Source: Verrucomicrobiota bacterium (GTDB lineage Bacteria; Verrucomicrobiota; Kiritimatiellia; SS1-B-03-39; UBA6053). Taken from it: DNA of 64,000 nt. Positions 3,146 through 63,354 of the stretch are shown in pieces. The DNA lies in NCBI GenBank assembly GCA_020831625.1, contig JAFIGD010000006.1:62001-126000 (forward strand). Reading direction: 5' to 3'. How positions within the stretch are numbered: position 1 is the stretch's first letter; each line of letters begins with the position of its first letter. The position numbers and the translations under genes are program-made. Below the pieces are notes generated by a model that was given only the letters and a program-made list of their open reading frames with translations, was not told where the DNA came from and ran no database searches.

Positions 3146-4504
3146 ATGAAAATCAACCAAACCCTCACGCCACAGGACCTGCTCCCCAAACTCAACAACC
3201 TCTGGGAGCTTTCCGCCGCCAAGATTCACGCGATCCAGACCGAATACGATCATTCCAAAGGCTCCCCGGTCTTCACAATCAAAGGAAAATACACCACCCG
3301 CGGCTGGACCGAATGGACCCAGGGCTTCGAATTCGGCTCCGAAATCCTCCAGTACGACGCCACCGGCGATGAACACTTTCTCAAAAGCGGACGCGACAAC
3401 ACCGTCAAACTCATGGCCCCCCACGTCTCACACTTCGGCGTGCACGACCACGGATTCAACAACGTCAGCACCTACGGCAACCTGCTCCGCCTCATGAACG
3501 AGGGCCGCCTCCCCGAAAACGAATGGGAGCGCAACTTCTACGAACTCGCTCTCAAACTCTCCGGCGCCGCCCAGGCCCGCCGCTGGACCCCCATCGCCAG
3601 CGGCGAAGGCTACATCTACTCCTTCAACGGCCCCCAGAGCCTCTTCGCCGACACCATCCGCTCCCTGCGCGCCCTCGCCGTCGGCTATCAGCTCGGCCAC
3701 CCCCTTATGGAGGAGAACGACCGGGCGATTTCCCTGCTCGAACGCCTCGTCCAGCACGCCCGCACCACCGCCAAATTCACCATCTTCTACGGCGAGGGCC
3801 GCGACGCCTTCGACATCCGCGGCCGCACCGCGCACGAAAGCCTCTTCAACGTCAACGACGGCAACTACCGCGCCCCCAACAGTCAACAGGGCTTCTCACC
3901 CTTCACCACCTGGACCCGCGGCCTCGCCTGGTGCATCGCCGGCTATCCCGAAGAACTCGAATTCCTCAAAACGCTTTCCGATGAGGAACTCGCCCCCTTT
4001 GGCGGCCGCGAGGAAATCGAAGGCTTCATGCTCAACGCCGCCAAAGCCGTCAGCGATTTCTACATTCAGCACACCAGCCTCGACGGCATTCCCTACTGGG
4101 ACACCGGAGCCCCCAACCTCCACAAACTCGGCGATTACACCCAACGCGCCGCCGATCCCTACAACGAGCACGAATCCGTCGACAGCTCCGCCGCCGTCAT
4201 CGCCGCCCAGGGCCTCATCCGCCTCGGGCGCTATCTCGGCGACGAGGGCAAAGACTACACCCAGGCCGGCCTCACCGTCCTCAACACCGTCTTCGACGAA
4301 CCCTATCTCAGCACCGACGCCAACCATCACGGGCTCATCCTCCACAGCAACTACCACCTCCCCAACGGCTGGGACCACATCCCCCCCGGCCGCAAAGTCG
4401 CCTGCGACGAATCCTGCATGTGGGGCGACTACCACGCCCGCGAAGCCGCCCTCCTCGTCCAGCGCCTCGCCAAGGATGAACCGTACCTTAAATTCTTCCT
4501 CTAA
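3146..4504 (+). CDS. GH88-like (unsaturated glucuronyl/rhamnogalacturonyl) hydrolase
   Basis: A 452-residue protein with the alternating aromatic and helical pattern of six-hairpin (α/α)6 glycosidases. Markers include HDHGFNN at 100-106, ADTIRSL at about 168-174 (where GH88 enzymes have a catalytic Asp; inference), FNVNDGNYRAPNS at 234-246 and WTRGLAW at 256-262, close to the W.RGQAW block of GH88 enzymes. GH88/GH105 enzymes cleave the unsaturated uronic acid left by polysaccharide lyases. No signal peptide, so it acts in the cytoplasm on imported oligosaccharides. The ATG at 3146 follows the regulator's stop by one base; the frame is open further upstream to 2960, inside the regulator, which was rejected. 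Confidence 0.7.
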   Translation: MKINQTLTPQDLLPKLNNLWELSAAKIHAIQTEYDHSKGSPVFTIKGKYTTRGWTEWTQGFEFGSEILQYDATGDEHFLKSGRDNTVKLMAPHVSHFGVHDHGFNNVSTYGNLLRLMNEGRLPENEWERNFYELALKLSGAAQARRWTPIASGEGYIYSFNGPQSLFADTIRSLRALAVGYQLGHPLMEENDRAISLLERLVQHARTTAKFTIFYGEGRDAFDIRGRTAHESLFNVNDGNYRAPNSQQGFSPFTTWTRGLAWCIAGYPEELEFLKTLSDEELAPFGGREEIEGFMLNAAKAVSDFYIQHTSLDGIPYWDTGAPNLHKLGDYTQRAADPYNEHESVDSSAAVIAAQGLIRLGRYLGDEGKDYTQAGLTVLNTVFDEPYLSTDANHHGLILHSNYHLPNGWDHIPPGRKVACDESCMWGDYHAREAALLVQRLAKDEPYLKFFL

Positions 4505-4510
4505 ATCCGT

Positions 4511-4561
4511 CGGATCGGTCGGATCGGTCGGATCGGTCGGATCGGTCGGATCGGTCGGATC
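4511..4561. repeat. 9-bp tandem repeat (CGGATCGGT), 5.7 copies
   Basis: Five perfect copies of CGGATCGGT (4511-4555) plus six further bases, starting seven bases after the stop codon of the GH88-like gene, in the 105-base gap before the oxidoreductase. Perfect identity of the copies suggests recent expansion or active slippage. The repeat keeps frame (multiple of three) but no gene reads through it. Confidence 0.9.
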
Positions 4562-4609
4562 AAAATCTCAACACCCACCCTACCACAACCCCAAAACCAC
4601 ATTACCCTT

Positions 4610-5788
4610 ATGGAAATCAAACCCATCCGCATCATCATGAACGGCGTCACCGGACGCATGGGAACCAACCAGCATCTGGACCGTTCCATCACCGCCATCA
4701 TCGAACAGGGCGGCGTCAAAGGCTCCAACGACCTCATCCTCATGCCCGAGGTCCTCCTCACCGGACGCAGCGAGCACAAACTCAAAGTCCTCGCCGAAAA
4801 ATTCGGCAAACGCGCCATCGGCAAACCTTACGAATACACCACCGATCTCGACGGCGCACTCGAAGGCAAATTCGGCAAGTTCGACATCTTCTTCGACGCC
4901 TCCGGCACCCTGCAGCGCGCCGGCTTCATCGAAAAAGCCGTCAAAGCCGGCCTCGCCATCTACTGCGAAAAGCCCACCGCCGTCGAAACTGCCGAAGCCG
5001 TCCGCCTCGCCAAACTCGTCGATGAAGCAGGTCTCAAAAACGGCGTCGTCCAGGACAAACTCTGGCTCCCCGGCTTCCGCAAAATCAAAATGCTCAAAGA
5101 ACTCGGCTTCTTCGGCAACATCCTCTCCGTCCGCGGCGAATTCGGCTACTGGGTCTTCACCGGACTCGACACCGACCAGCCCGCCCAGCGCCCCTCCTGG
5201 AACTACCGCTCCGAAGACGGCGGCGGCATGATGATCGACATGTTCTGCCACTGGCGCTACGTCATCGACAACGTCTTCGGCCCCGTCAAAAGCCTCGTCG
5301 CCTGGGGCGCCACCGACCTCCCCGAGCGCCGCTCCGAAGACGGCTCCGTGTTCCCCTGCACCGCCGACGACTCCGCCTACGCCATGTTCCTCCTCGAAGA
5401 CGGCACCATGGTCCAGTTCAACTCCTCCTGGTGCACCCGCGTCCGCCGCGACGACCTCCTCACCGTTCAGGTCGACGGTGTCAAAGGCTCCGCCGTCGCC
5501 GGCCTCCGCGAAGTCGTCGTCCAAAGCGCCGCCGACACCCCCAAGCCCGTTTGGAACCCCGATATTCCCCAGCCCATCGACTTCTACAAAGGCTGGTCCG
5601 ATGTCCCCAACAACATCGAATACGACAACGCCTTCAAAATCCAGTGGGAACTCTTCCTCCGCCACGTCGCCCTCGACGAACCCTGGCGCTACAGCCTGAT
5701 GGAAGGCGCCAAAGGCGTTCAGCTCGCCGAACTTGGCATGCAGTCCTGGAAAGAAAAACGCTGGGTCGACGTTCCCGAACTGAACTGA
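4610..5788 (+). CDS. Gfo/Idh/MocA family NAD(P)-dependent oxidoreductase
   Basis: A 392-residue dehydrogenase. The Rossmann loop is NGVTGRMG (11-18); the family's EKP motif is at 120-122 (CEKPTA), its Lys being catalytic in characterised members; GGGMMIDMFCHW (204-215) is the second-domain signature with the Asp/His pair. Family members oxidise or reduce sugars, inositols and their derivatives. It lies 105 bases after the GH88-like gene, separated by the 9-bp tandem repeat, and is probably co-transcribed. With the hydrolase it would turn an unsaturated-uronate-derived or related sugar into central metabolites; the exact sugar is unknown. Confidence 0.87.
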   Translation: MEIKPIRIIMNGVTGRMGTNQHLDRSITAIIEQGGVKGSNDLILMPEVLLTGRSEHKLKVLAEKFGKRAIGKPYEYTTDLDGALEGKFGKFDIFFDASGTLQRAGFIEKAVKAGLAIYCEKPTAVETAEAVRLAKLVDEAGLKNGVVQDKLWLPGFRKIKMLKELGFFGNILSVRGEFGYWVFTGLDTDQPAQRPSWNYRSEDGGGMMIDMFCHWRYVIDNVFGPVKSLVAWGATDLPERRSEDGSVFPCTADDSAYAMFLLEDGTMVQFNSSWCTRVRRDDLLTVQVDGVKGSAVAGLREVVVQSAADTPKPVWNPDIPQPIDFYKGWSDVPNNIEYDNAFKIQWELFLRHVALDEPWRYSLMEGAKGVQLAELGMQSWKEKRWVDVPELN

Positions 5789-5793
5789 CCCCT

Positions 5794-5842
5794 TTTTCCG
5801 ACCGTCGGAAAACCGCCCTCCGCGTTTTCCGACGGTCGGAAA
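5794..5842. repeat. Paired palindromic element (TTTTCCGAC-N-GTCGGAAAA), intergenic copy
   Basis: Two palindromes facing each other: TTTTCCGACCGTCGGAAAA (5794-5812, 9-bp arms around one base) and TTTTCCGACGGTCGGAAA (5825-5842, 8-bp arms), separated by a 12-base C-rich spacer containing CCCTCC. Each is self-complementary and the two are also inverted copies of each other. The pair lies just after the oxidoreductase stop and before the toxin-antitoxin pair. There is no T-tract, so simple termination is not obvious. Related copies occur at 12603-12618 and 63225-63273. Confidence 0.85.
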
Positions 5843-5924
5843 CACTTTATCAGAAGCACACATCATCACAAAAATTGAAGATACCAATCTTGACCAAGTC
5901 AAAAAGACCTGGTAAAGTTTTTTG

Positions 5925-6182
5925 ATGAAAACCATGTTAATTTCTGACTTCAAAGCCAAAGCGATTCGGTGCCTGAAGGATGTAAACGAAACGCGTGAGC
6001 CTCTGCAAATCTCACTCCGCGGGAAGCCCCTTGCGGTCGTCTATCCCGCTGAACCCGAACAAAGGCCGCAGGTCAGGCTTGGCACGGGTGTGGACTTCCG
6101 GATACAGGATGCCCCGGAGCCGGATTGGTTTGGAACAGGGTTCACCTCCGAATGGGAAAGTCCTCATGGACCTGTTGCTTGA
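5925..6182 (+). CDS. Phd/YefM-type antitoxin
   Basis: An 85-residue protein with the N-terminal Phd/YefM pattern (MLISDFKAKAIRCLKDV, then ISLRGKPLAVVYP), which forms the DNA-binding dimer in this antitoxin family; the C-terminal 40 residues are probably the disordered toxin-binding tail. The ATG at 5925 was preferred to an adjoining TTG at 5922. The gene overlaps the toxin gene by 17 bases, the normal arrangement for a type II pair, and the antitoxin probably represses its own promoter. The 136-base gap upstream holds the paired palindromic element. Confidence 0.78.
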   Translation: MKTMLISDFKAKAIRCLKDVNETREPLQISLRGKPLAVVYPAEPEQRPQVRLGTGVDFRIQDAPEPDWFGTGFTSEWESPHGPVA

Positions 6183-6567
6183 CACGCATGTCTGGATCTG
6201 GGCCCACGAGTCCCCGGACCGGCTGGGAGAAAAAACGAAAGCACGGCTGATGTCCTCAGCAAACCGCCGCATCATCAGCTCCGTTTCCACGCTGGAGATT
6301 GCCCGCCTTGTCACCATGGACCAGTACCGGATTCCCTGTCCCCTGAACACCTGGATCGATAACAGTGCCAGAGACCTGCTCCTGACCTTTTTCGATTTGG
6401 ATCATGCCAGTGCCCGCGAGGCCTATGCTCTGCAGGGAGACTTTCATGCGGACCCTGCCGACCGCATGCTTGTCGCCACGGCACGCGTCCATAACCTTAC
6501 GCTCCTCACCGCCGATGAACGCATCCTCGCTTATCCCCATGCCCGGCATTTTGATGCCCGGCTGTGA
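6166..6567 (+). CDS. PIN-domain toxin (VapC-like ribonuclease)
   Basis: A 133-residue PIN-domain protein. The acidic metal-binding residues are visible: D6 (LLLDTHVW), E44 (STLEIARL), D99 (DPADRML) and D117 (LTADERIL). Characterised VapC toxins cut tRNA or rRNA when released from their antitoxin. The LLLDTHVWIW start is typical of the VapC subgroup paired with Phd/YefM antitoxins. The open frame extends back to 5995 inside the antitoxin gene, but family length and the MDLLLDTHVW start fix the ATG at 6166. Confidence 0.87.
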   Translation: MDLLLDTHVWIWAHESPDRLGEKTKARLMSSANRRIISSVSTLEIARLVTMDQYRIPCPLNTWIDNSARDLLLTFFDLDHASAREAYALQGDFHADPADRMLVATARVHNLTLLTADERILAYPHARHFDARL

Positions 6568-10706: not shown

Positions 10707-12013
10707 CTCCCGAAAAAAAACCCGCCTCTCCGGTGATACTGAAACGAATCGGCATTATCATCGGCACCGTCGCGCTCACCCTCGCCGGGAGTCTGTTCTA
10801 TTTTAACGCCAGGCCCGAAAGCAAACGGGTACTTATCCTCCCTGAAGATGTTCCACCCGTGCAATCCGAGGCGTTTGAACGTTTGCTGGAGGCTTATGCC
10901 GGCAATCGAATGGTCGACGGAAACAGCATTACCCCTTTAAAAAACGGGGATGAGATTTTTCCCGCGAAACTGGACGCGATCGCGGGGGCGGAAGCATCCA
11001 TCTGCCTGGAGATCTATGAGTTCTGGGGCGAAAACGTCGCCGGGCGGATTACCGATGCCCTTATTGAGCGTGCGGAAAACGGGGTGCGGGTTCATGTTTT
11101 GCTCGATTATTTCGGATCGATCCCGGCCGACCCGGATAAATTCACCCGGATGGAGGACGCCGGCATTGAGCTGTTCCGCTGGCGGGAGGCCTCCTGGTAC
11201 CACAGCGGCCGGTTCAATCATCGAACGCACCGGAAATTAATGATACTCGACGGCCGTGTCGGCTTCATCGGCGGTGCGAATATGGGGGATGACTGGTGGA
11301 AAACCGATGGCGGGGGACGTCCCAAATATCGGGACAACCATTTTAAATTCACCGGCCCCGTCGTCAGTCAACTGCAGGCTGCGTTTATGGACAACTGGCT
11401 GCGGGCCGCAAACGAAATCCTTCTCAGTGACACGTATTTTCCCGAACCTGAGCCCGCGGGCGATCACCGCGCCCAGGTGATCATCAGTTCGCCTTCGGAT
11501 GGACAGAAACGGATTCGCACCTTCCTTCTGCTTGCGTTCGGAGCCGCCCGGGAGTCGATTTTCATTCAAACCGCCTATTTTTATCCGGATCCGATCATAA
11601 AGCAGTCCCTGAAAGACGCGGTGCAAAGAGGCGTTGAGGTAAAACTGATCGTCCCCGGCGAAAAGACCGGAGAAAACATTGTCCGGTTCGCCTCCCGGAA
11701 CCGCTGGGGGCCTTTGCTTGAGGCGGGAATTAAACTTTTCGAATACGAACCCACCCGTTTTCATTCAAAGCTGTTCATTATTGATGATCATCTTGTCTCG
11801 CTGGGCTCCACCAATTTCGACAACCGCTCGTTTCGGATCAATGACGAAGCCAACGTGAATATCCTGTGTTCCGATTTTGGGTCCCGAATGCGGCAACTCT
11901 TCGATCAGGATCTGGAGTCCTCGGAGAAAATCACCTATGAAACATGGAAATCCCGCCCCTGGTGGGAACGGGGACTCGGGATCATCGGAAACGCAATTGG
12001 ACCCCAGCTCTAA
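10703..12013 (+). CDS. Phospholipase D-family enzyme, cardiolipin-synthase-like
   Basis: A 436-residue protein with an N-terminal membrane anchor (about 14-35) and two HKD motifs: H176-K178-D183 (HRKLMILD) and H354-K356-D361 (HSKLFIID), each followed by the GG/GSxN block (GGAN; GSTN). This is the arrangement of cardiolipin synthases ClsA/B/C, which join two phosphatidylglycerols or use PG with PE. It has one anchor instead of the two helices of ClsA, closer to ClsB/ClsC. It starts within the TPR lipoprotein stop (ATGA) and converges with the FGE-like gene by four bases. pgsA, which supplies PG, lies in the next block. Confidence 0.85.
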   Translation: MTPEKKPASPVILKRIGIIIGTVALTLAGSLFYFNARPESKRVLILPEDVPPVQSEAFERLLEAYAGNRMVDGNSITPLKNGDEIFPAKLDAIAGAEASICLEIYEFWGENVAGRITDALIERAENGVRVHVLLDYFGSIPADPDKFTRMEDAGIELFRWREASWYHSGRFNHRTHRKLMILDGRVGFIGGANMGDDWWKTDGGGRPKYRDNHFKFTGPVVSQLQAAFMDNWLRAANEILLSDTYFPEPEPAGDHRAQVIISSPSDGQKRIRTFLLLAFGAARESIFIQTAYFYPDPIIKQSLKDAVQRGVEVKLIVPGEKTGENIVRFASRNRWGPLLEAGIKLFEYEPTRFHSKLFIIDDHLVSLGSTNFDNRSFRINDEANVNILCSDFGSRMRQLFDQDLESSEKITYETWKSRPWWERGLGIIGNAIGPQL

Positions 12014-12681
12014 TCCGCCTCCAACAGCACCCGCATGCCGACATCCGCATCCCGATACGCCTCCGGCGGAAGCACCGAAAAGGAAAGCGCCAAGGTTTCA
12101 GGGTTCCGCTCCGACCAGGCGCTGCCGATGACCCGCCCCTCCCGCGTCCATTCCCACAGCCCCCCGGCCAGATCGCGGAAGCCGTAACCCGTGCGGGGCC
12201 CCGCGTTTCGCGGAGCCCGTTGACCTGCGAAATGAAGGCCCCGGGGAGGATTCTCCAGCCCGAATCCCCAGGGAACCTCCGCGCTGTCGATTCCGCCGCG
12301 GGCAGCGGTCCGCCACTCCTCCAGTGCCGGGAGACGCGCGGAATATCCGCTGAGTTCTGTCAGGCGGTCACATACGGCGCGGGCCTCCGCCAGTGAGACC
12401 GTCGCCGAAATCCCCCGCCCCGAAGTGTTTACCCCCAAAGCCCGGGCCTCCGCGTTTGTCAGCTCACGCTCTCCCAGCCAAAAACGGATGCGTCCCTCTT
12501 CATCCGGCACCCCCAGAAACCGCATGACCGATCCGTCCGGCAGCGGTATGTTTTTCTGCGGAATTAATGCCGCCCCGAGCGGAAGAAAGGTTTTCCAGTC
12601 GGTTTCCGACGGTCGGAATCCAAGGGCCAGGAGGCTTCCGAGAATCGGAAACAGGATCCAGACCGGACGGAAACGGTTCAT
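12010..12681 (-). CDS. FGE/SUMF1-like domain protein with N-terminal anchor
   Basis: A 223-residue protein. A hydrophobic N-terminus (about 5-21) acts as signal or anchor; the rest resembles the formylglycine-generating-enzyme-sulfatase (SUMF1) fold: RELTNAEAR, VSLAEARAVCDRLTELSGYS, ARLPALEEWRTAARGG, GLWEWTREG and GMRVLLEAD. It is shorter than catalytic FGEs (about 280-300), and only one Cys lies in the middle of the domain. The paired active-site Cys near the C-terminus of true FGEs is absent, so it is probably a binding or structural variant. The ATG at 12681 overlaps the preceding stop by four bases. A TTCCGAC/GTCGGAA palindrome lies in its coding sequence near the N-terminus. Confidence 0.68.
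   Translation of the reverse strand: MNRFRPVWILFPILGSLLALGFRPSETDWKTFLPLGAALIPQKNIPLPDGSVMRFLGVPDEEGRIRFWLGERELTNAEARALGVNTSGRGISATVSLAEARAVCDRLTELSGYSARLPALEEWRTAARGGIDSAEVPWGFGLENPPRGLHFAGQRAPRNAGPRTGYGFRDLAGGLWEWTREGRVIGSAWSERNPETLALSFSVLPPEAYRDADVGMRVLLEAD
12603..12618. repeat. Palindromic TTCCGAC-N-GTCGGAA element inside a coding region
   Basis: TTTCCGACGGTCGGAA has 7-bp arms around one base and is identical in core to the element at 5825-5842. It lies inside the FGE-like gene, where it encodes FRPSE just after the membrane segment. It is a single copy; an imperfect TTTTCCAGTCGG immediately before it might be a decayed second arm. Confidence 0.7.
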
Positions 12682-32322: not shown

Positions 32323-32328
32323 ACCCTC

Positions 32329-32408
32329 GTCACGCGTCATTCGCCATTCGCCACTCGTCACTCGACACTCCCCATTCGTCACTCGTCATTCGTCACTCGT
32401 CACTCGTC
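32329..32408. repeat. Degenerate 7-bp tandem repeat (GTCAYTC), about 11-12 units
   Basis: From 32329 the sequence is a ladder of 7-base units: GTCACGC, GTCATTC, GCCATTC, GCCACTC, GTCACTC, GACACTC, CCCATTC, GTCACTC, GTCATTC, GTCACTC, GTCACTC, then GTC. It begins six bases after the nadA stop codon and ends at the ATG of the cysteine desulfurase gene, replacing any ribosome site. Unit length is not a multiple of three, so it is not a coding repeat. Short heptamer-like units (CTCACCT) recur at 60984. Confidence 0.9.
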
Positions 32409-33536
32409 ATGATTTACGCCGACTACAACGCCACCACCCCCTGCCTTCCCGAAGTCGCGGACCTCGTGCGGGACTGTCTGTGCGAGACCTACGGCAATCC
32501 CAGCAACCGCGCCTCCCTGATGGGACGCAAAGCCCGGGCCGCGATCGACACCGCGCGCGAGCAGGTCGCCCGAGCCGTCGGGGCGTCTCCCGATGAAATC
32601 ATTTTCACCAGCGGTGCCACCGAGGCCTGCAACACCGCCATCCTCGGGGTCATGGAACGCCTCCTGCCCACCCGCCCCCGCATCCTCACCAGCGCGGTCG
32701 AGCACCCCGCCGTCTGCATGCCCGCCGAAGCCTGCACCCACGCCGGGGCCGACTGGATCGAACTGCCTGTTGATTCGCAAGGCCGTCTGGACCTGAACGC
32801 GCTCAAATCCTCCCTCAACGACAAAACCGCCCTCGTCTGCGTCATGGCCGCCAACAACGAAACCGGCGTGCTCCAGGACATCCGCGAAGTCGTTCGCCTC
32901 AGCCACGCCGCCGGAGCGCTTGTTTTCTGCGACATGACCCAAATGCTTGGAAAGATCCCCTTCTCCGTTCACAGCGAAGGCGTGGATTTCGCCTGCTTCT
33001 CCGCCCACAAATGCTACGGCCCCAAAGGCGTCGGAGCCCTCTACAAGCGCCGCGGACTCGCCCTCTCCCCCCTGATTCGCGGGGGCGGTCAGGAAAACGG
33101 ACTCCGCAGCGGCACCGAAAACGTCCCCGGCATCGCCGGATTCGGGCTCGCCGCCGATCTCGCCGCCCGCGAAGTCAACGCCCGCCGCGCCCATCTGCAG
33201 CGCCTCACCCGCCTGCTGGAATCCGAGGTCCGCCGCCACCTCCCCAACGTCATCATCCAAAGCGGGGCCGCCGACCGGCTCCCCGGCACCTCCATGTTCA
33301 CCCTGCCCGGCCTCAACGGCAAATGGCTCGCCCAGCTCTCGGACGTGACCGCCAGCTCCGGCAGCGCCTGCGCCTCGCTGCAGGAAAAACCCAGCCACGT
33401 CCTCCGCGCCATGGGGGTGAACGAAACCCTGGCCGCCCGCAGCCTCCGCATCAGCCTCGGCACGCCCACCACCGAAGCCGACATCCGCCACATCGCCAAA
33501 CGCCTCATTGAAGGCGCGCAACGACTGCAAAGCTAA
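32409..33536 (+). CDS. Cysteine desulfurase (NifS/IscS family)
   Basis: A 375-residue PLP enzyme that mobilises sulfur from cysteine. The start MIYADYNATTPCLPEV, the PLP Lys K201 in SAHKCYGPKGVGALY, the GGGQENGLRSGTEN block, and the persulfide Cys C321 in SSGSACASLQEKPSHV are all present. The Cys loop is of the short NifS/SufS-like context rather than the IscS SLEPSYVL form. Its start is preceded directly by the heptamer repeat with no ribosome site. Adjacent to nadA; as in Bacillus, where a nifS-like gene neighbours nad genes, it may serve the NadA cluster (inference). Confidence 0.93.
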   Translation: MIYADYNATTPCLPEVADLVRDCLCETYGNPSNRASLMGRKARAAIDTAREQVARAVGASPDEIIFTSGATEACNTAILGVMERLLPTRPRILTSAVEHPAVCMPAEACTHAGADWIELPVDSQGRLDLNALKSSLNDKTALVCVMAANNETGVLQDIREVVRLSHAAGALVFCDMTQMLGKIPFSVHSEGVDFACFSAHKCYGPKGVGALYKRRGLALSPLIRGGGQENGLRSGTENVPGIAGFGLAADLAAREVNARRAHLQRLTRLLESEVRRHLPNVIIQSGAADRLPGTSMFTLPGLNGKWLAQLSDVTASSGSACASLQEKPSHVLRAMGVNETLAARSLRISLGTPTTEADIRHIAKRLIEGAQRLQS

Positions 33537-62259: not shown

Positions 62260-63354
62260 ATGCCGCCCCCCGACCTCCGCGAACCCGTCCGCCGCCTCCT
62301 CCGCGGCCATACCCGCCGCTGGGCGCCCCACAGCCGCCTCTTCCTCATCGAAGACCGCTCCACCTGGGTCATCCACTGGGAAATGCGCGAACTCGCCGCC
62401 GCCGCCCGCCGCCTCCACATCCGCCGCGCCCCCCCCCTCCTTCACCCCCACGCCGCCGGCCAGGCCGTCTTCTACGGCAGTCAGTTCTTCCTCCTCGCCG
62501 ACGACTGGATCCGCTCCCCCCACCGCATCGCCACCGCCTACTTCCACGGCAAACCCGGCACCGGCCACCCCGAATTCGACCAGCTGTACGCCCGGATCCT
62601 ACAGCACCACGAGCACATTCACCGCCTCCAGGTCAGCCACTCCGAAATGGAGCACATCCTCCTCGAAACCGGCATCGCCCCCGAAAAGCTCCACCGCATC
62701 CCCATCGGCATCAACCTCGATCTTTTCCCGCCCCAAACCCCCGAAACCAAACGCCGCGCCCGCGCCGCCCTTGGCATCCCCCCCGACGCCTTCGTCATCG
62801 GCTCCTTCCAAAAAGACGGCGAAGGCTGGGGCGACGGCCTCAAACCCAAGCTCATCAAAGGCCCCGACATCTTCGCCCAAACCCTCGCCCGCCTCCGCCA
62901 CGACATCCCCTCCCTCCACGTCCTCCTCAGCGGACCCGCCCGAGGCTACCTCAAAGAAGAACTCCGCAAACTCAACATCCCCCACACCCACCGCAACCTC
63001 AAAGCCTACCCCGACATCGCCAACTTCTACCACGCCCTCGACGCCTACCTCGTCGCCTCCCGCCAGGAAGGCGGCCCCAAGGCCGTCCTCGAATCCATGG
63101 CCGCCAGCATCCCCCTCGTCACCACCCGCGTCGGACAGGCCATGGACCTCGTCCGCGACGGCCAAAACGGCTACCTCGCCGACATCGAAGACACCGCCGC
63201 CCTCGCCGAACGCCTCCTCCACATTTTCCGAAGTTCGGAAACCCTCCCCCCCCTCCTTTCCGAAGCTCGGAAAACCGCCGAAGCCCACGCCTACCCCCGG
63301 CTCGACCCGCTGTGGAAGACCTGTTTCGAAGGCTTCGTGGAGGCGGCCCCCTGA
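62260..63354 (+). CDS. GT4-family glycosyltransferase
   Basis: A 364-residue GT-B enzyme. The N-terminal half includes SRLFLIEDRSTWVIHWEMRE and IRSPHRIATAYFHGKPGTGH, then IPIGINLDLFPPQTPETKRR; the donor half has VIGSFQKDGEGWGDGLKPKL and AYLVASRQEGGPKAVLESMA, the GT4 E-x7-E signature. It starts one base after the wecB stop, suggesting that it adds the sugar made by WecB (inference). Two palindromic TTTCCGA elements lie near the 3' end of the coding sequence (63225-63273). Confidence 0.88.
   Translation: MPPPDLREPVRRLLRGHTRRWAPHSRLFLIEDRSTWVIHWEMRELAAAARRLHIRRAPPLLHPHAAGQAVFYGSQFFLLADDWIRSPHRIATAYFHGKPGTGHPEFDQLYARILQHHEHIHRLQVSHSEMEHILLETGIAPEKLHRIPIGINLDLFPPQTPETKRRARAALGIPPDAFVIGSFQKDGEGWGDGLKPKLIKGPDIFAQTLARLRHDIPSLHVLLSGPARGYLKEELRKLNIPHTHRNLKAYPDIANFYHALDAYLVASRQEGGPKAVLESMAASIPLVTTRVGQAMDLVRDGQNGYLADIEDTAALAERLLHIFRSSETLPPLLSEARKTAEAHAYPRLDPLWKTCFEGFVEAAP
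63225..63273. repeat. Paired palindromic TTTCCGA...TCGGAAA element inside a coding region
   Basis: TTTCCGAAGTTCGGAAA (63225-63241) and TTTCCGAAGCTCGGAAA (63257-63273) are separated by a 15-base all-pyrimidine spacer (CCCTCCCCCCCCTCC). The same architecture as at 5794-5842, including the CCCTCC spacer core. They lie within the C-terminal part of the GT4 gene, read in different frames (FRSSE and LSEAR), so the DNA rather than the peptide is conserved. Confidence 0.8.

Follow-up and report, generated by a model that had tools for sequence, protein, structure and literature searches.

Genome-wide pairs of short palindromes at three-turn spacing in Kiritimatiellae, a candidate DNA signal

Several described systems place short DNA motifs throughout bacterial chromosomes. 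The DNA uptake sequences (DUS) of Neisseriaceae and the uptake signal sequences (USS) of Pasteurellaceae occur hundreds to thousands of times per genome, both in genes and between them. They form clade dialects with a conserved core, are short and non-palindromic, and a single motif suffices (PMC12616744). The highly iterated palindrome HIP1 of cyanobacteria is a single contiguous octamer at very high copy, tied to cognate methyltransferases and replaced by alternative versions in some lineages (PMC4390886). REP/BIME/REPIN elements, with their RAYT transposases, are palindromes in pairs at high copy, enriched near gene ends, and REP families carry GTAG or CGTC tags (PMC3733652). The matS, SBS and NBS sites of MatP, SlmA and Noc are single palindromic dimer sites scattered through the chromosome, including inside genes, with regional bias and known proteins.

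The repeat described here compares differently with each of these. With DUS/USS it shares copy number, clade dialects and presence in coding and non-coding DNA, and a link to ComEC is possible, while the unit is a pair of palindromes with fixed three-turn spacing. With HIP1 it shares palindromy, high copy and alternative versions, but HIP1 has no paired geometry. Compared with REP/BIME/REPIN it shows no GTAG or CGTC tag in the flanks of its copies, its spacers are not homologous, its coding sites arose in situ, and a Y1 transposase is not required. Compared with matS, SBS and NBS it occurs as obligate pairs without ori/ter bias. No earlier description was found in the open-access papers searched, in which Kiritimatiellota or Kiritimatiella gave no hit with palindromes or inverted repeats. 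We place it among genome-wide DNA signal sequences, with an architecture not seen in any of those compared.

The window analysed is a stretch of 64,000 nucleotides from a Verrucomicrobiota bacterium (GCA_020831625.1, contig JAFIGD010000006.1, positions 62,001 to 126,000, forward strand). The original prediction had noted two palindromes facing each other across a C-rich spacer, with matching architecture inside a glycosyltransferase gene 57 kb away. This observation is correct, and the family is larger than had been stated. The palindromes are TTTCCGACCGTCGGAAA at 5795-5811 and TTTCCGACGGTCGGAAA at 5826-5842, with a start-to-start period of 31 bp. The glycosyltransferase copy is present with a period of 32, and a third pair, also of period 32 and inside a minus-strand gene, had been missed. 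The three pairs (A, B and C) and their neighbours are as follows; the palindromes are given without strand.

5796-5810, palindrome unit 1 of pair A, TTCCGA-CCG-TCGGAA, 7 bp after the oxidoreductase stop codon
5811-5826, 16-bp spacer of pair A, not conserved in sequence, only in length
5827-5841, palindrome unit 2 of pair A, TTCCGA-CGG-TCGGAA, period 31
12604-12618, palindrome unit of pair B, period 32, inside a minus-strand gene
12636-12650, second palindrome unit of pair B
63226-63240, palindrome unit of pair C, period 32, inside the glycosyltransferase gene
63258-63272, second palindrome unit of pair C
4610-5788, plus strand, GFO/IDH/MocA oxidoreductase gene that pair A follows
5922-6182, plus strand, Phd/YefM-like antitoxin gene downstream of pair A (28.8 bits, just under the Pfam cut-off of 29.8)
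12010-12681, minus strand, host gene of pair B, FGE-sulfatase-like domain
62260-63354, plus strand, host gene of pair C, glycosyltransferase (Glycos_transf_1)

The antitoxin gene belongs to a small two-gene module (5922-6567), whose overlapping second ORF has a start (MDLLLDTHVWIWA) that looks PIN-like by eye. The window also holds a tandem array of 9-bp units (ATCGGTCGG) at 4496-4567, at the end of the gene before the oxidoreductase, and a degenerate 14-bp tandem repeat (CATTCGTCACTCG-like) at 32323-32420.

The units are far above chance. With up to two mismatches the window holds 6 units against 0.52 expected, and no shuffle reached 6. The whole genome (4.89 Mb, 111 contigs) holds 269 units of TTCCGA-N3-TCGGAA and 122 pairs, against zero for the reversed control pattern. 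Thus the condition set beforehand as a refutation, that only the listed copies would occur, is not fulfilled. In 51 listed pairs the period is 31 (42 pairs), 32 (8) or 30 (1), although periods of 20-45 were allowed, and no other palindrome family pairs at 31/32. Units also occur three and four in a row at the same period, for example at position 2102 of contig C15. The spacer, of 16 or 17 bp, has no conserved sequence beyond an A next to the first unit and a T before the second in some species; the CCCTCC of pair A is particular to that copy and not a family feature, as spacer sequence varies freely. In 855 kb of this genome 23 pairs match all 24 fixed bases, 4 have one mismatch and none has two, while the background at other spacings is zero for 0-1 mismatches. 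The four units that appear single each have a one-mismatch partner 30-32 bp away, so the pair is the unit of function. The rule is not strictly all-or-none: a relaxed pattern finds 28 further pairs in this genome (150 against 122), and two related genomes (G005 and G009; genomes compared are labelled G and families f) keep about 40 pairs each with looser inner bases and more mismatches.

The pairs sit both between and within genes, a third or more of them inside genes. Among 14 intergenic loci sampled in this genome, 7 (including pair A) lie within 15 bp after a stop codon against 1.65 expected for interval-matched placement (P 1e-4). In-gene pairs are more often at period 32 (31 against 17 at period 31) and intergenic ones at 31 (65 against 13 at period 32, the latter mostly from one species, UBA6056). 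Host genes are functionally unrelated: carA, amine oxidase, GH20, SMC-like, NifU-like and amylase genes, as well as alaS and PBP2, which were recognised from sequence. On two complete chromosomes (G008 and G090, mean spacing 90 kb and 61 kb) the sites are spread all round without ori or ter polarity (Rayleigh P 0.33 and 0.85). G008 is somewhat more even than random (P 0.02), which is not repeated in G090 (P 0.94).

Comparison of orthologues indicates that the sites are conserved at the DNA level, and inside genes the pairs sit without insertion at the same codons in orthologues of several genera. In carA the pair is present at the same codons (at most two bases off) in seven of twelve genomes of the order and absent without indel in five, and the site is the most synonymously conserved 16-codon window of the gene. 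Orthologues from G003 and G004, fetched by protein homology, behave in the same way. Among orthologues fetched by homology alone, 12 have 0-1 changes in the 24 fixed positions and 8 have 6-14, with none between. In the pool of all orthologues with a conserved site, 298 of 299 synonymous codons in sites are identical against 5416 of 11036 (49%) elsewhere in the same genes; part of this pool was found through the pattern itself, so it is the homology-only set that carries the weight. Pair B keeps all 24 fixed bases in G003, G004 and G008, with a third unit in G003 and G004. Pair A is absent after the orthologous oxidoreductase in G003 and G004, so sites also turn over. The intergenic site at C15:185958 is kept between G000 and G004 with a wholly different spacer. 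The bases at the center of each unit are free but species-biased (TCA in G002, CGC in G003, AGG/AGC in G008) and can switch at a conserved site. A frame-preserving insertion of 51 bp, considered as a reason for the preference of in-gene pairs for period 32, is rejected, since carA, alaS and other genes show no indel at the site. In a methyltransferase gene G002 has three units (31+31; locus L132:1501-1577) where G005 has two (32; L144:1501-1547), a net in-frame difference of 30 bp, equal to one unit.

The same geometry extends across the class in other dialects. The TTCCGA form is confined to one family (f1) among 388 genomes sampled from the phylum, and the hits from an incomplete scan of 85,000 species were all Kiritimatiellota, Verrucomicrobia or PVC-group records. 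A relaxed pattern finds the geometry in 101 of 193 genomes of the class, mostly and in most other families as TTCCAA-N3-TTGGAA, with up to 1358 pairs (G408) and 1048 (G023) and a reversed control near zero. De novo search of G030, which scored zero with the relaxed pattern, recovered TCCAA-N3-TTGGA pairs at 32 bp, while G129 gave no pairs. In G129, repeated TCAGA-N5-TCTGA palindromes (loci L283, L285 and L286) lie in a longer conserved repeat with shared flanks, possibly an insertion-sequence family. Family f12 was examined as a hidden dialect and this was rejected: its adjacent TCCGCC-N3-GGCGGA palindromes (L263:12296-12325 and other G375 loci) pair at 15 bp with shared flanks (AGGAATTTT...CAATCC) and are a different, REP/MITE-like element. 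A few viral contigs carry in-gene pairs of period 31-32 (L328:8129-8175, L327:3967-4013, L332:650-726), in both dialects and several inside very long ORFs (about 2200 and 3110 aa); phages of these hosts may carry the host signal.

ComEC proteins of the class fall into a long form (about 630-900 aa) and a short form (about 510-600 aa) that split mostly by family, as seen in the class-wide hits and at loci L287-L298 and L303-L306; frames were checked. In a domain search of six of these proteins, only that of the genome under study also passes for the lactamase domain. Families with ComEC frames of 620 aa or more have pairs in 12 of 16 cases and short-ComEC families in 1 of 28 (Fisher P about 1e-6), a comparison that is not corrected for phylogeny and has exceptions: family f7 has pairs with short ComEC, f12 has long ComEC and no pairs, and G126 has 122 pairs and no ComEC hit. 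The ComEC match of G129 (family f18; C1:1409676-1410500) is read through three in-frame TAG codons, which may reflect stop-codon reassignment or a pseudogene.

We propose that each pair is one recognition site. In this model a symmetric, homodimeric protein would read TTCC(G/A)A-N3-T(C/T)GGAA, with two dimers on the same face of the helix, as 31.5 bp is three turns of B-DNA. The pair geometry, the conservation at the DNA level, the in-situ position inside genes, the clade dialects and the spread round the chromosome are established by the analysis, whereas the protein, its two-dimer binding and the job of the site, including any enhancement of DNA uptake, are inferred. We hold with good confidence the core of this reading, a protein-read DNA signal rather than a mobile repeat or an RNA structure; the explanation as a whole is about as likely as not. 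For the job, our choice is a self-DNA mark used when DNA is taken up or recombined, working like uptake signal sequences in that sites would be multiplied and kept perfect because DNA carrying them is favoured. The dialects, in-gene conservation and turnover, together with the uncorrected ComEC association, favour this view, but it remains tentative, as known uptake signals are non-palindromic and work singly while these units occur essentially only in pairs. Chromosome organisation is the main rival, with a nucleoid, segregation or bridging protein anchored at the pairs as SlmA, Noc or MatP are at their palindromes. The palindromic paired geometry and coverage of the whole chromosome would suit it equally well, and the fixed three-turn spacing, arrays in register and lack of regulon logic also speak for it. 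Against it, the regional distribution relative to ori or ter seen for matS, SBS, NBS and parS is absent in G008 and G090, and a copy number from 0 to 1358 among related genomes is odd for a core chromosome function. We regard it as possible though somewhat less likely, and keep the two jobs close.

The original prediction was only partly supported: it correctly named a genome-wide repeat family that is not a local terminator, and its alternative of binding sites for a structuring protein remains viable, but its first-named reading, REP/BIME or MITE-type elements spread by a transposase acting in trans, is not supported. This and the remaining explanations are all unlikely. In favor of the REP/BIME or MITE reading are the high copy, the paired palindromes, the lineage-specific expansion, the enrichment after stop codons and a weak positive correlation of pair count with Y1_Tnp count (rho 0.39; 0.30 by family). 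However, mobile copies are ruled out for the in-gene sites, which align without indels to orthologues lacking them, and are disfavoured for the family by unshared spacers and flanks; the conserved interior of a MITE is likewise missing. Y1 transposases are neither necessary nor sufficient: G390 (86 pairs), G159 (102), G062 and G428, with 19-102 pairs, have no Y1_Tnp hit, and there are genomes with 10-15 Y1_Tnp hits and no pairs. Terminators or stabilisers of mRNA 3' ends could account for the many intergenic pairs 7-14 bp after stop codons, and pair A can fold strongly as one long hairpin. But T-runs precede and A-runs follow the stem, no terminator-like site is found at pair A, many pairs are inside genes, and spacing precise to 1 bp has no reason in RNA. 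RNA or single-stranded DNA structure is further disfavoured because the centers of the two units do not in general covary as base pairs; they are not complementary more often than chance in G008 and G002, with a weak excess in G000 (P 0.01). Operators of one global transcription factor would fit the tight palindromic dimer site, but not its location inside genes and after stop codons rather than in promoters, in functionally unrelated genes and in numbers up to 1358.

A more far-reaching reading is compatible with the evidence, although we hold it only tentatively: a new kind of genome-wide DNA signal, an obligate pair of palindromes multiplied and kept perfect in place by a drive, such as biased recombination of incoming DNA, that writes it even into conserved protein genes, with reader and dialect coevolving across a bacterial class, and also carried by some phages of that class.

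A signal of 46-47 bp with 24 fixed bases, repeated 50 to over 1000 times, conserved inside genes such as carA and alaS and changing dialect between families, implies an abundant and highly specific DNA-binding system, inferred from sequence, in a bacterial class with very little genetics. It offers a clean case to separate selection from drive as makers of genome-wide motifs, and the gain and loss inside single genera (0 to 75 pairs in genus g10) makes the putative reader findable by comparative genomics.
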